DNA of 38,658 nucleotides from a virus: IMG/VR virus record IMGVR_UViG_3300025617_000052, positions 1 to 38,658 of that record. One strand, written 5' to 3'. Numbering within the stretch: the first letter of the stretch is position 1; each line of letters starts with the position of its first letter. The position numbers and the translations under genes are program-made. Positions 25,519 to 36,127 of the stretch are shown here, piece after piece. The notes below the pieces were generated by a model. The model worked only from the letters and a program-made list of their open reading frames with translations. It did no database searches and was not told the DNA's origin.

Positions 25519-27291
25519 ATGATTAAAATTAAAGACCTCACAGTTAAAAACTTTATGAGTGTGGGTAATCAGACCCAGGCTGTTGACTTTAACCAGCAAC
25601 AGCTAACATTAGTGCTTGGCGAAAACTTAGATCAAGGCGGAGACGATAGCGGAAGTCGTAACGGTACTGGTAAGACTACTATTATTAACGCACTGTCCTA
25701 TGCATTGTACGGTACAGCACTTACAAATATTAAACGCAATAATCTTATCAATAAGACCAACGGCAAAGGTATGTTAGTTACTCTGCATTTTGAAAAGGAC
25801 GGACAAGACTATAGGATTGAACGAGGACGTTCTCCTAATGTTTTAAAGTTTTTTATTAATGATCATGAACAAGAACTAACAGACGAGTCACAGGGAGACA
25901 GTCGCAAAACGCAAGAAGACATTAATGACCTGTTAGGTATGAGTCATGATATGTTTAAACACGTTGTTGCACTAAACACCTATACTGAACCGTTCCTTAG
26001 TATGCGTGTTAATGATCAACGACAGATTATTGAGCAGTTGTTGGGTATTACAATTCTGTCCGAAAAGGCAGACAGTCTTAAAGATCAAGTTCGACAGACT
26101 AAAGAAGCAATTACAGAAGAAACTGCAAAAATTAATGCTATCCAAAGTGCTAATGAAAAAATACAAAGTACTATTGAAAACTTAGAACGCACACAACGTG
26201 CATGGCAATCTAAAAAGCGAACAGATGAAGAAAATCTAGTAAATGCAATTGACGAATTAGAAAAATTAGACATTGATGCAGAACTAGAAGCACACGAACA
26301 ACTAGCTAACTGGACTGAATTAAACAATGCAATTGTGGCTCTTAATAAAGAAAAAAGCACACTAGAGAGTGCATTACTACGTGCCACTAAATCTGTTGAA
26401 AAAGCTGAAAAAGACATCGCAAATTTGGAAGACGCTACATGTTATACATGTGGACAAGAACTGCATGCTGATAAAAAAGCAGAAATTGAGTCAAGAAAAA
26501 CAAAAGAGTTAAACGATGCAATAGCTTATCAGACAGAAGTTGCAGATAAATTAGAAGAAGTACTAAAAGGTCTATCTGACATTGGTAATATCAACGGACG
26601 TCCTAACACTTTTTACGAAACTGCAAAAGAAGCATATGAGCACAGAAACAATGTAGACAACTTAAAGCAGGCACTAGCAAGCAAACAGCAAGAAGAAGAT
26701 CCATATCAAACACAGATCGACGATCTTACTAATACTGCTATCCAAGAAATTGACTGGACTCCTGTAAACGAACTTACAACTTACAAAGAACACCAAGAAT
26801 TTCTGCTTAAATTGTTAACTAATAAAGATAGTTTTATTCGTAAAAAGATTATTGATCAAAATTTAATGTATTTGAACAATCGACTAACTTATTATCTTGA
26901 TCGTTTGGGTTTGCCGCATCAAGTTGTGTTCCAAAATGATCTAAATGTAGAAATTACACAACTAGGACAAGATTTAGACTTTGATAACTTATCGCGAGGC
27001 GAGCGTAATAGACTTATACTAGGTATGAGCTTTGCATTCCGTGATGTTTGGGAAAGTCTATATCAAAATATCAACTTGTTGTTTATTGACGAGTTAATTG
27101 ATAGCGGTATGGACACTGCCGGAGTTGAGAACTCTCTAAGTGTTCTTAAGAAAATGGGTAGAGAACGTGATAAAAATGTATTCCTAATTTCGCACAAAGA
27201 CGAACTAGTAGGAAGAGTCAATCACGTGATGAAAGTTGTTAAAGAAAACGGCTTTACAAGCTATGCAAACGATATTGATATTGTAGAATGA
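25519..27291 (+). CDS. gp46: Recombination endonuclease subunit gp46 (Rad50/SbcC-like)
   Basis: The protein has 590 residues (T4 gp46 has 560). This ATPase controls the gp47 nuclease. Motifs: Walker A SRNGTGKTTI with Lys52; a Q-loop-like VALNTYTEPFLSM; a long coiled coil interrupted by the zinc hook CYTCG (Cys308, Cys311); the ABC signature NLSRGERNRL near residue 491; and Walker B LLFIDELID near 520, followed by a LISHKDE switch. All parts expected of a Rad50-type SMC protein are present. It starts on the base after the gp47 stop and its stop overlaps the next gene by 4 bases (ATGA). Confidence 0.94.
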   Translation: MIKIKDLTVKNFMSVGNQTQAVDFNQQQLTLVLGENLDQGGDDSGSRNGTGKTTIINALSYALYGTALTNIKRNNLINKTNGKGMLVTLHFEKDGQDYRIERGRSPNVLKFFINDHEQELTDESQGDSRKTQEDINDLLGMSHDMFKHVVALNTYTEPFLSMRVNDQRQIIEQLLGITILSEKADSLKDQVRQTKEAITEETAKINAIQSANEKIQSTIENLERTQRAWQSKKRTDEENLVNAIDELEKLDIDAELEAHEQLANWTELNNAIVALNKEKSTLESALLRATKSVEKAEKDIANLEDATCYTCGQELHADKKAEIESRKTKELNDAIAYQTEVADKLEEVLKGLSDIGNINGRPNTFYETAKEAYEHRNNVDNLKQALASKQQEEDPYQTQIDDLTNTAIQEIDWTPVNELTTYKEHQEFLLKLLTNKDSFIRKKIIDQNLMYLNNRLTYYLDRLGLPHQVVFQNDLNVEITQLGQDLDFDNLSRGERNRLILGMSFAFRDVWESLYQNINLLFIDELIDSGMDTAGVENSLSVLKKMGRERDKNVFLISHKDELVGRVNHVMKVVKENGFTSYANDIDIVE

Positions 27292-27521: not shown

Positions 27522-27971
27522 ATGGAGTGGACTTATCAAGGCAAAGTAATAGAAACAATACCAGACGAATATGAAGGCTTTGTTTATCTCATTACCAATC
27601 TAACTACTGGGCAAAAATATATAGGCAAAAAACTTGCAAAATTTAAAACTACCAAACCTCCACTCAAAGGCAAGAAAAATAAACGCAGAGGCAGCAAAGA
27701 AAGCGATTGGAAAACCTATTGGGGTTCATCCGATAGACTAAACGCCGACGTTGCGGCACTAGGCCCAGAAAACTTCACAAGAGAAATCCTATACCTATGT
27801 AAAGGCAGGGGCGAAATGTCCTATATCGAGGCAAGAGAGCAATTTGACCGCCGTGTATTAGAGAGCGACGAGTATTACAATGGAATTATTAATGTTAGAG
27901 TTGGCGGTTCCGATAAATTGCGACAGGCATTGCTAGAACATAGCATCAAGGCAAAACAATCCAACACATAA
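27522..27971 (+). CDS. GIY-YIG-like endonuclease
   Basis: The protein has 149 residues. The N-terminus carries a recognisable variant of the GIY-YIG motif: GFVYLI (residues 19-24) and KYIGKK (32-37), followed by a Lys-rich loop and DWKTYWGSS (about 66-74), a block shared with T4 Seg-type nucleases. A later Glu in YIEAREQF may be the metal ligand, and NGIINVRVGG resembles the end of the fold. The C-terminus has no obvious second DNA-binding domain, so it may be a stand-alone nicking enzyme or a degenerate homing nuclease. It is followed by a long non-coding, hairpin-rich stretch. No intron is evident around it. Confidence 0.68.
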   Translation: MEWTYQGKVIETIPDEYEGFVYLITNLTTGQKYIGKKLAKFKTTKPPLKGKKNKRRGSKESDWKTYWGSSDRLNADVAALGPENFTREILYLCKGRGEMSYIEAREQFDRRVLESDEYYNGIINVRVGGSDKLRQALLEHSIKAKQSNT

Positions 27972-28096
27972 GGTTGGCGGGCCAGTTTAGAAATACCGCT
28001 GTGGAAAAAGCTGCCGTATAGGAGCACACGTAACATGCTGAGCGGCATCCGGTAGTAGGATGTTTGATTGGCATAGATGGAATGTTGGCTGTCGAA

Positions 28097-28169
28097 AAAC
28101 TGCACATTACACATAAAAACTCTTTAGCACAGGAACGAAGCGAGAGGTAATGTATTATAAACTGCACAT
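28097..28169. repeat. Direct repeat of AAACTGCACAT
   Basis: The 11-base word AAACTGCACAT occurs at 28097-28107 and again at 28159-28169, each followed by an A-rich ACATAAA-like stretch. It lies inside the non-coding region and may reflect duplication within a structured RNA or a protein-binding site. Confidence 0.45.
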
Positions 28170-28358
28170 AAACTTGCTTTATGTACATTTTATGTTACAT
28201 ATGTCGACGTAGGTTGGGAAAGGTCAGAGCCCATTGTGTAGCAGAAAACACCTACTTCCAAGTCTCGGCTGGTGGCGAACTCACATGAAGCACATTTTCG
28301 AGTTTGATGGAACCGTAACAGGTTCCGTCTGACTGAAACAATCTACATGAAACTTAAA

Positions 28359-28380
28359 CATTATGACTTACGTCATAATG
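28359..28380. repeat. Perfect 9-bp inverted repeat, 4-base loop
   Basis: CATTATGAC and GTCATAATG flank the loop TTAC. No T-run follows on either strand, so it is not a standard intrinsic terminator. It could be an RNA hairpin or a dimeric protein-binding site. Confidence 0.7.
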
Positions 28381-28419
28381 CGTTTCATATATAAATCATT
28401 TATATCACGCATAATTAAA

Positions 28420-28474
28420 TACGAAGTAAGTAGTTTGAGCGATAGCGATAACTAATATCTACGAAGTAGATATT
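28420..28474. repeat. TACGAAGTA repeated 40 bases apart, second copy in a hairpin
   Basis: TACGAAGTA is present at 28420-28428 and at 28460-28468. The second copy is the tip of a perfect stem AATATCTAC/GTAGATATT with loop GAA. Between the copies is a tandem GCGATA GCGATA (28439-28450). They lie just upstream of the late-type element for the next gene and could be regulatory. Confidence 0.5.
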
Positions 28475-28485
28475 TAAATAAGTGA

Positions 28486-28493
28486 GATAAATA
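28486..28493 (+). promoter_or_regulatory. T4 late-type promoter element for the 28525 gene
   Basis: GATAAATA fits NATAAATA. A start about 6 bases on, near 28499, leaves a 26-base leader with the ribosome site AAGGAAA before the ATG at 28525. This points to late expression of that gene, in line with a virion role. Confidence 0.55.
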
Positions 28494-28524
28494 ACTTTAA
28501 CTAGTTGACAAAGGAAAAATTCTA

Positions 28525-29124
28525 ATGAAAGTTTACGAAATTCTCAGTGAAAGCGATATTGATAACATCGACGAAGCACCTGCTGGATTTATTGGACAAA
28601 CTGCACGTAAACTAGGTGCAAAAGCTCTTAATAAAATTGGCATGAAAGGTACTGCTGCTAATATGGCAACAAAAGCTAATGTTGGCGATGAAGCAAATCG
28701 TATTAGACAAGAATTAGATCAATACATGGCAGGCTCAGGAATCAAGAAAGGTCAACTAGAAGTAAATGACTTCCTTGCTTTCCTAGCTAATGCAGGATTT
28801 GATAAGAAAACATCAATGAACGCTATTCGTAAATATCACAAAAAGAATAAAGCTGATCCAATTCAAACAACACTAGTTGCTAGTATTGAAGAAAGTGTAA
28901 TTTCTGAAGCAATTCCAAACCAAACAATTGACAAAGTAATTATGGATCTTGTTAAATTAGGATTTAAAAAGCAAGCAGGTGGCAAACAAGCTCGCAGTAA
29001 GTATGCAATTACACAACCTGGTGCTAAAAAATCTACTGCTAAAGCCGGTGCAAAATCAGTATCTGATGCTGAAAAACAAGCTATAGATCTTCTTAAAAAA
29101 GCCGGATATAATGTTACTAGATGA
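28525..29124 (+). CDS. Putative internal head protein, possible gp21 substrate
   Basis: The protein has 199 residues, Lys- and Ala-rich and basic, with no named domain. It begins MKVYEILSES, where Leu7-Ser8-Glu9 then Ser10 fits the (L/I)-x-E cleavage rule of T4 prohead protease gp21. The same LSES word is found near residue 39 of the gp23 start in this window. A second match, VISEA, lies near residue 127-131. Short basic proteins with cleaved leaders are packed in T4 heads (internal proteins), so a head role is plausible but inferred. The C-terminal part (GGKQARSKYAI, Ala/Lys-rich linker) could bind DNA. It has a late-type element and AAGGAAA. Its stop lies directly next to the convergent gp51-like stop. 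Confidence 0.75.
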   Translation: MKVYEILSESDIDNIDEAPAGFIGQTARKLGAKALNKIGMKGTAANMATKANVGDEANRIRQELDQYMAGSGIKKGQLEVNDFLAFLANAGFDKKTSMNAIRKYHKKNKADPIQTTLVASIEESVISEAIPNQTIDKVIMDLVKLGFKKQAGGKQARSKYAITQPGAKKSTAKAGAKSVSDAEKQAIDLLKKAGYNVTR

Positions 29125-29355
29125 TTAGAAAAACGGCAAATTAGTATCTTTTGTCGTTTTTAAGTTTTCTTCTATTAATTTTGTTAAAATTTCTCTATCT
29201 TCAAAACCTAGTGCATATGCTTCGTCGAGAGTCATTCCGCCTCTCATAAACCATGAAAGTTTAAATGTATCGTGTTTTATCTGTTTTACATCTGTGTCAA
29301 GGATCTTAACTTCTTCTAAGATTTCGTCAATAGAGAGCGTTAAGATCCTGAGCCG
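29125..29355 (-). CDS. gp51-like -1 frame extension of gp26
   Basis: A 76-codon open frame continues after gp26 in the -1 frame and ends at 29125. The conserved-looking part reads KLSWFMRGGMTLDEAYALG then EDREILTKLIEENLKTT, like the small gp51/tail-assembly-chaperone segments of T4-like marine phages. It has no ATG, GTG or TTG before the Met inside WFMRGG, near codon 40, so it has no credible start of its own. It is open back to the slippery run AAATTTTTTC in the last codons of gp26, so expression as a gp26 fusion of about 357 residues is the simplest reading. It lies opposite the tape measure gene, where phages usually place frameshifted tail chaperones. The name gp51 is inferred; T4 gp51 itself is larger (about 249 residues). 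Confidence 0.65.
   Translation of the reverse strand, partial: RLRILTLSIDEILEEVKILDTDVKQIKHDTFKLSWFMRGGMTLDEAYALGFEDREILTKLIEENLKTTKDTNLPFF
29129..29161. terminator. Bidirectional intrinsic terminator between convergent genes
   Basis: The arms AAAAACGGCAAA (29129-29140) and TTTGTCGTTTTT (29150-29161) form a 12-bp stem with one G-T wobble and a 9-base loop. On the plus strand the stem ends in a T-rich run, and on the minus strand it ends in TTTTTCTAAT. It sits between the convergent stops of the 28525 gene and the gp51-like frame, inside the end of the latter. Confidence 0.65.
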
Positions 29356-35224: not shown

Positions 35225-36127
35225 ATGGCAGATTTATCAAAAATTGAGCAAATGCTCGAATCGCTTGTCAATGAAGACAAAGCAAAAGCAGAAGAACTTT
35301 TCCACGAGTTTGTGATTGAAAAGTCAAGAGAGATTTATGAAGGACTACTAGAATCAGATCTAGAAGACCTAGACGAAGCAGACGACGAAGAAGTAGATGA
35401 GTCAGAAGACGATCTAGATGAAGCTACTGATGAAGAAGTTGACGAGTCTGAAGAAGAAGTTGAAGAAAACTTTGACCTAGAAGAATTTGAAGTCGAAGGC
35501 GACGACGAAGATGAAGGCGAAGATGACGACATGGATATGGACATGGACGACGAAGGTGACGACGAAGACACTGAAGAGCGTATGGACGATCTAGAAGACG
35601 CACTAGCTGATCTACAAAAAGCATTCGACGACATGATGTCAAAAGATGGTGGAGATGACGAAGAAGGCGACATGGATGACATGGGCGGCGATCCAGCAGA
35701 CGACATGATGGGCGACATTGAAGACAAGCCAGAAGAAGAATCATTTGCTTTTGAAGCTGAAGAAGATGACGAAGATGACGAAGAAGTTGACGAGTCAGAC
35801 AAGTCAGAAGCAGAAACAATGAGAGAATATGTTGAAAAAGTAACAGCTAAAATGGGTGACAACGGTGCAAACACCAAGTCAACTGTAGCTGGCGCTAACA
35901 ACATGGGCGGAACTACTGCTAACATCGCACAAGGTGGCGACGGTGGCAATGGCGGTACAGAAGGCGGCCTAGCAAAACCTTCAACAACAGAAGAAAATGC
36001 AGGCAACGTCAATGTACCAGGCGGCAAGGCGAGCAAGTCAATGAAAGCTCAGCCAAACGGCCACGGTGCTGAAAAGAAAGGCAAAGGCGAAAGCGGGGCC
36101 GATACTAAAAGCACTATCGGATCCTAA
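35225..36127 (+). CDS. gp67: Acidic prohead core protein, gp67-like
   Basis: The protein has 300 residues. The first 55 residues (EQMLESLVNEDKAKAEELFH then EFVIEKSREIYEGLLES) resemble the N-terminus of T4 gp67, the 80-residue prohead core protein. Then comes a very acidic stretch at about residues 45-190, full of Asp and Glu with short DEEVDES repeats, and a Gly/Asn-rich tail. LLES near residue 43 fits a gp21 cleavage site. gp67 is cleaved to a small acidic internal peptide in T4. The order portal, small gene, acidic core, protease, scaffold, capsid matches the T4 head operon. The ribosome site AAGGAGA is strong. It is much longer than T4 gp67, mainly in the acidic and tail parts. Confidence 0.72.
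   Translation: MADLSKIEQMLESLVNEDKAKAEELFHEFVIEKSREIYEGLLESDLEDLDEADDEEVDESEDDLDEATDEEVDESEEEVEENFDLEEFEVEGDDEDEGEDDDMDMDMDDEGDDEDTEERMDDLEDALADLQKAFDDMMSKDGGDDEEGDMDDMGGDPADDMMGDIEDKPEEESFAFEAEEDDEDDEEVDESDKSEAETMREYVEKVTAKMGDNGANTKSTVAGANNMGGTTANIAQGGDGGNGGTEGGLAKPSTTEENAGNVNVPGGKASKSMKAQPNGHGAEKKGKGESGADTKSTIGS

Follow-up and report, generated by a model that had tools for sequence, protein, structure and literature searches.

The one large gene-free stretch in the window, by which we mean the whole 38,658 nt of viral DNA analysed (IMG/VR record IMGVR_UViG_3300025617_000052), probably encodes a stand-alone, trans-acting, structured noncoding RNA of ~500 to 530 nt on the + strand, and this RNA would constitute a new phage RNA family. 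That the stretch is a real structured RNA on this strand is strongly supported by comparison with relatives, which shows a predicted compact multi-helix fold with a pseudoknot being kept under selection. The closest analogue in kind, not in sequence, is the GOLLD/ROOL class, and by this analogy the best reading is that of a trans-acting RNA or ribonucleoprotein (RNP) scaffold. Large structured phage RNAs are few and their functions largely open; the family described here is common among the phage contigs fetched, and analogous multicopy RNAs lie unannotated in culturable jumbo phages of E. coli, Cronobacter, and Salmonella. That makes the system open already to deletion, RNA-seq, and pull-down tests, and a pair of direct repeats that change in concert within the RNA gives a specific molecular clue to follow.

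The gene-free stretch and its relatives

Positions 27972 to 28524 form the only large gene-free gap in the window, and the + strand holds no open reading frame of at least 50 amino acids between 27971 and 28525, which confirms the half kilobase without a gene noted in the preliminary description. Two overlapping minus-strand frames (27875-28114 and 27946-28188) are inconsistently present in relatives. The next-largest apparent gap, 29125-29339, holds a minus-strand gene of ~70 to 80 amino acids that is kept in relatives (cluster 5), so the statement that all other gaps are shorter than ~80 bases was essentially right. Lacking the usual start, this gene (29125-29340) escapes ordinary ORF calling. 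The locally higher G content reported for the region is real but weak, at 22.2% versus 18.6%, a level reached by 15% of same-size stretches. The borders first proposed, 27972-28485, roughly held, but conservation starts at 27950, inside the SegE-like gene, and ends near 28473. A decayed gene, raised earlier as the counter-explanation, was looked for and is excluded, since the + strand of relatives offers only short runs without a stop codon (median, 54 amino acids) and compensatory pairs dominate. ARAGORN found no tRNA in the window, neither ARAGORN nor Rfam gave a tRNA or tmRNA match for the RNA, and no Rfam family matched the whole window at gathering thresholds or the region at E≤5.

The SegE-like protein encoded just before the RNA, used as a query against viral contigs, identified 80 loci, and a homologous noncoding region, 66 to 95% identical, directly follows SegE in nearly all of those with enough downstream sequence. 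A scan with the 20-mer TTGGGAAAGGTCAGAGCCCA gave at least 119 stretches, and an nhmmer profile search finds the RNA in 199 fetched loci, a number that includes overlapping pieces of the same contigs. Loci were also fetched by gp46 alone, to avoid selection by the RNA or by SegE; where at least 1,500 nt follow gp46, the RNA is present in 45 of these 48 loci, and the remaining 3 contigs end inside SegE. Many IMG/VR contigs (e.g., L010, L013, L014, L016, L024, and L027) likewise stop inside SegE or in the RNA's initial 150 nt, where assembly was probably broken by the shared sequence. In cultured phages, no DNA resembling the noncoding part was found beyond chance level, and one further candidate, the Lentisphaeria metagenome-assembled genome L202, matches the motif only and lacks the RNA.

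Covariation, predicted fold, and concerted repeats

When folded as a single sequence, the region lies below shuffled controls, a check suggested earlier, but only modestly so (+ strand z, -2.0; - strand z, -3.8), and the case therefore rests on the relatives. The covariation analysis across related phages, also suggested at that stage, used 93 dereplicated sequences with a mean identity of 72.5% and found compensatory pairs. Within a defined structure of 80 pairs in 17 helices, 92.1% of cells are paired versus 80.1% in shuffles, and 52 of the 80 pairs have changed on both sides (804 such cells versus 255 in shuffles). Sliding the partners by 1 to 3 columns lowers pairing to 34 to 44%, a control that leans toward the structure because the latter was derived from the same sequences; the null that keeps the tree and the per-column rates does not lean, and under it 17 column pairs reach E≤0.05. 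Many G-U exchanges occur among the covarying pairs, which identifies + as the RNA strand, and one long-range helix crosses the core helix (Table 1), thus forming a predicted pseudoknot. The at least six clean hairpins originally seen are borne out by this helix set, and the structured RNA suspected from them is strongly supported by conservation, compensatory change, and the pseudoknot in relatives.

Under the tree-based null, E is about 0 at 28001-28029, where all five pairs of the inner hairpin 28010-28015/28021-28025 have changed on both sides, and for three pairs of the pseudoknot helix, which is extended by 28100-28103/28241-28244 in about half of the sequences. The core helix shows an independent UA-to-CG change, giving GCAGG/CCUG, in the divergent copies L120 and L342-L351. 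The SegE gene overlaps the RNA by ~22 nt, counted to the end of its stop codon, and the 5' border motif stays with the RNA where ORFs of ~70 to 90 amino acids intervene after SegE (L160, L147, and L101), even with SegE 200 to 300 nt away. The ORFs of this size that lie between SegE and the border differ among L160, L147, L104, L188, and L195, and some contain CxxC. One subgroup carries other sequence in place of the initial ~150 nt, with matches beginning at model position 156 to 166. A promoter or terminator was not found for the window's own copy.

Table 1. Features of the RNA element and its upstream genes in the window
Feature	Position	Strand	Evidence
gp46/SbcC-like recombination gene, synteny anchor	25519-27291	+	PHROG 77, E 5.6e-107
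SegE-like GIY-YIG endonuclease gene before the RNA, not required	27522-27971	+	PF19835, E 1.4e-35; PHROG 447
Whole conserved RNA element (best-estimate extent)	27950-28475	+	Homologous stretch in 199 fetched loci; covarying 3' hairpin
5' border motif GGCAAAACAATCCAACACATAA, overlapping SegE stop codon	27950-27971	+	Conserved directly before RNA
Helix 27976-27980/27996-28000	27976-28000	+	99.4% of cells paired; 2 pairs changed on both sides
Helix 28001-28003/28027-28029 around hairpin 28010-28015/28021-28025	28001-28029	+	UA to AU in 15 sequences
Helix 28035-28041/28068-28074	28035-28074	+	98.5% paired; 3 pairs changed on both sides; E about 0 (tree-based null)
Hairpin 28076-28080/28089-28093	28076-28093	+	97.8% paired; 5/5 pairs changed on both sides
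Long-range pseudoknot helix 28109-28113/28235-28239 (predicted)	28100-28244	+	98.1% paired; 5/5 pairs changed on both sides
Hairpin 28120-28123/28143-28146, loop GGAACGA near-invariant	28120-28146	+	97.8% paired; 3 pairs changed on both sides
Core helix GUAGGU/ACCUAC (28209-28214/28250-28255), nested UGGG/CCCA, near-invariant AAAGGUCAGAG	28209-28255	+	99.8% paired
Direct repeat R1 (ACATGAA)	28283-28289	+	Changes jointly with R2
Hairpin GAUGGAACC/GGUUCCGUC between R1 and R2	28306-28329	+	98.7% paired; many G-U/A-U and G-U/G-C exchanges
Direct repeat R2 (ACATGAA)	28345-28351	+	Changes jointly with R1
Variable hairpin ATTATGAC/GTCATAAT	28359-28380	+	9/9 pairs changed on both sides
3' hairpins 28433-28452 and 28455-28473	28433-28473	+	13/13 pairs changed on both sides

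The 7-base repeats R1 and R2 lie 62 bases apart with a hairpin between them. Across phages they take forms such as ACATGAA, ACATAAT, ACGTGAA, GCATAAA, GTATGAA, ACAGGAA, and ACAGAAA, among others, and their first six bases are identical to each other in 93/93 sequences, whereas permutations average 60 and reach at most 69. By parsimony, the repeats undergo 16 and 17 changes, of which 15 are joint (same branch, same substitution), and nowhere else in the alignment do several variable columns form such a concerted run. No strand complementary to the repeats occurs inside the RNA, and no further copies or complements of them occur in the window. The pattern suggests a co-evolving trans partner that is contacted twice, and it may also reflect a role of the element at the DNA level. 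We know of no parallel in GOLLD/ROOL-type RNAs.

Genomic setting and analogues in cultured jumbo phages

Relatives in the window clade share the gene order gp47-gp46-orf71-SegE-RNA-(variable genes)-baseplate hub. A mobile cassette of segE plus the RNA was considered for this clade and rejected because the position after gp46 is conserved. The RNA is also found in a different phage (L120, L344, L345, and L346), with no gp46 found in the L344-L346 records, which are fragments; in L351, no SegE occurs in the short upstream sequence, the contig starting ~1.6 kb upstream. As the RNA is not tied to its neighbors on either side, it would most likely act in trans, which is the simplest reading of this independence. 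Between gp46 and SegE, L148 and L343 carry a putative hydroxymethylbilane synthase gene (hemC), judged by eye from sequence only.

The closest cultured relatives are jumbo phages, as judged by gp46 and portal proteins (Phosso, PA5oct/Paride, and others; 48 to 49% identity). Their slot, flanked by gp46 and the baseplate hub, contains unannotated gaps of 663 nt in PA5oct (L215, 5518-6180), ~1,014 nt in Phosso, and 804 nt in GAP32, and no gap in Atu_ph07. Compared with shuffles, folding is far stronger for the PA5oct and Phosso gaps (z, -8.0 and -6.5, respectively, with 20 shuffles) and modestly so for that of GAP32 (z, -2.8). The GAP32 element is present in 31 records; GAP32 itself has five copies, and 121Q, Munch, XaC1, and Hallingskeid have four to five each, whereas each record checked in the window clade, with contigs of up to 331 kb, has one. 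In GAP32 (NC_019401.1), the copies lie at 35298-35671, 98805-99151, 177397-178200, 261519-262104, and 340742-341187, and the syntenic slot of 121Q is at 326.5 to 327.3 kb. The GAP32 copies are unannotated, paralogous structured RNAs of ~0.6 kb by prediction, with compensation in 62 of 101 predicted pairs among 26 cultured-phage copies. A perfect extended -10 element, TGnTATAAT, lies upstream of 21 of the 26 (0.026 expected per 170 nt), so the cultured RNAs look like independent transcription units. The 0.6- to 0.8-kb RNAs of GAP32, 121Q, Munch, Hallingskeid, and XaC1 and the PA5oct and Phosso slots resemble the window RNA in being syntenic, noncoding, and highly structured. Neither nhmmer nor two covariance models gave a significant match between the window RNA and the cultured-phage RNAs. 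The slot in several cultured phages is also predicted to hold a large unannotated structured RNA; position and style are all that it was found to share with that of the window.

Part of the 1-kb noncoding slot of Phosso (L216, 5710-5839) shows a sub-threshold match to Rfam EGFOA (RF02955), reaching 29 bits and E 0.0015 with the full model, below the gathering score of 37.7; in the window, EGFOA has no match.

Candidate function and alternative explanations

GOLLD and ROOL are large phage or prophage RNAs (PMC12286853; cited in PMC7567579), and homo-oligomeric RNA complexes are one feature of this class. Like them, the window RNA is phage-borne, several hundred nucleotides long, and not protein-coding, with an ornate predicted fold and an apparent action in trans; unlike them, it has no covariance-model match to the class, measures ~520 nt, and carries concerted heptamers, and while GOLLD and ROOL are often found near tRNA genes, the window has none. 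Phage ICP1 produces an abundant ~800-nt noncoding transcript (PMC7567579) from a similarly large, ORF-less locus with a different gene context, and neither the cultured-phage nhmmer profile nor a covariance model matched ICP1. The papers searched on jumbo-phage noncoding RNAs, which covered the ICP1 and phage K transcripts and reviews, do not describe the window RNA, which apparently forms a new structured family, although an earlier mention is possible.

Among the options offered in the preliminary description, a trans-acting RNA, regulatory or structural, fits best. It could share a transcript with gp47-gp46-SegE or start from a promoter close by, be released at the conserved 5' border, and, like GOLLD/ROOL-type phage RNAs, function in the infected cell as free RNA or as an RNP. 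The near-invariant core loops might contact a conserved partner, and the two heptamers a co-evolving one, for example, a dimeric RNA-binding protein or a target RNA.

It could instead be speculated that the RNA acts in cis, as a leader or riboswitch for the internal-protein-like genes downstream, since it often directly precedes a + strand gene and a late-promoter-like ATAAATA, seen in just 12 of 107 loci, is enriched ~10-fold behind it. We consider this improbable for an element so large, given that the downstream genes fall in 25 clusters across relatives, that L087, L130, L153, and L104 have the following gene on the other strand, and that the slot RNAs of GAP32, 121Q, and BF face minus-strand genes. 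To a similar degree, we doubt that it serves the SegE-like nuclease, either as a guide or cofactor resembling omega RNA or as a processing element of the SegE mRNA. The position directly 3' of SegE in nearly all window-clade loci would suit such a partnership, as would a short protein in which GIY-YIG is the only recognized domain; yet close SegE homologs in the cultured phage Melnitz, cyanophages, and rhizobiophages lack the RNA, L120 and L344 have the RNA without SegE and with phage terminase genes after it, other genes intervene in L160, L147, L349, and L350 (a 341-amino-acid gene in the latter two), and a guide-like segment was not found.

The chance that the hairpins and direct repeats act in DNA, as a replication origin or as a recombination or nuclease site, appears very small: the element adjoins the gp46/gp47 recombination genes and the heptamers resemble recognition sites that co-evolve with a protein, but the G-U exchanges and the pseudoknot point to RNA, and the cultured analogues are multicopy, scattered, and equipped with promoters. 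The nuclease target once proposed is unsupported, and a replication start may be an additional role of the element. A self-splicing intron or other ribozyme, for which the long invariant loop stretches (AAAGGUCAGAG and GGAACGA) and the pseudoknot could be cited, we regard as extremely improbable, since neither a catalytic core nor an Rfam intron or ribozyme match, even at E≤5, was detected and no gene is interrupted, the flanking ORFs being complete and variable.

Extending the preferred trans-acting reading, it is conceivable, though rather unlikely, that a new class of phage RNA machine is conserved at a single genomic position throughout T4-related jumbo phages, with two identical recognition heptamers that co-evolve with a trans partner, each lineage re-targeting its RNA by changing both heptamers. 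The genes downstream of the RNA, at 28525-29124 in the window and in relatives, vary and often start with MKVYEILSES or MKLNDILTES, which presumably resemble the capsid-targeting N termini of T4 internal proteins.
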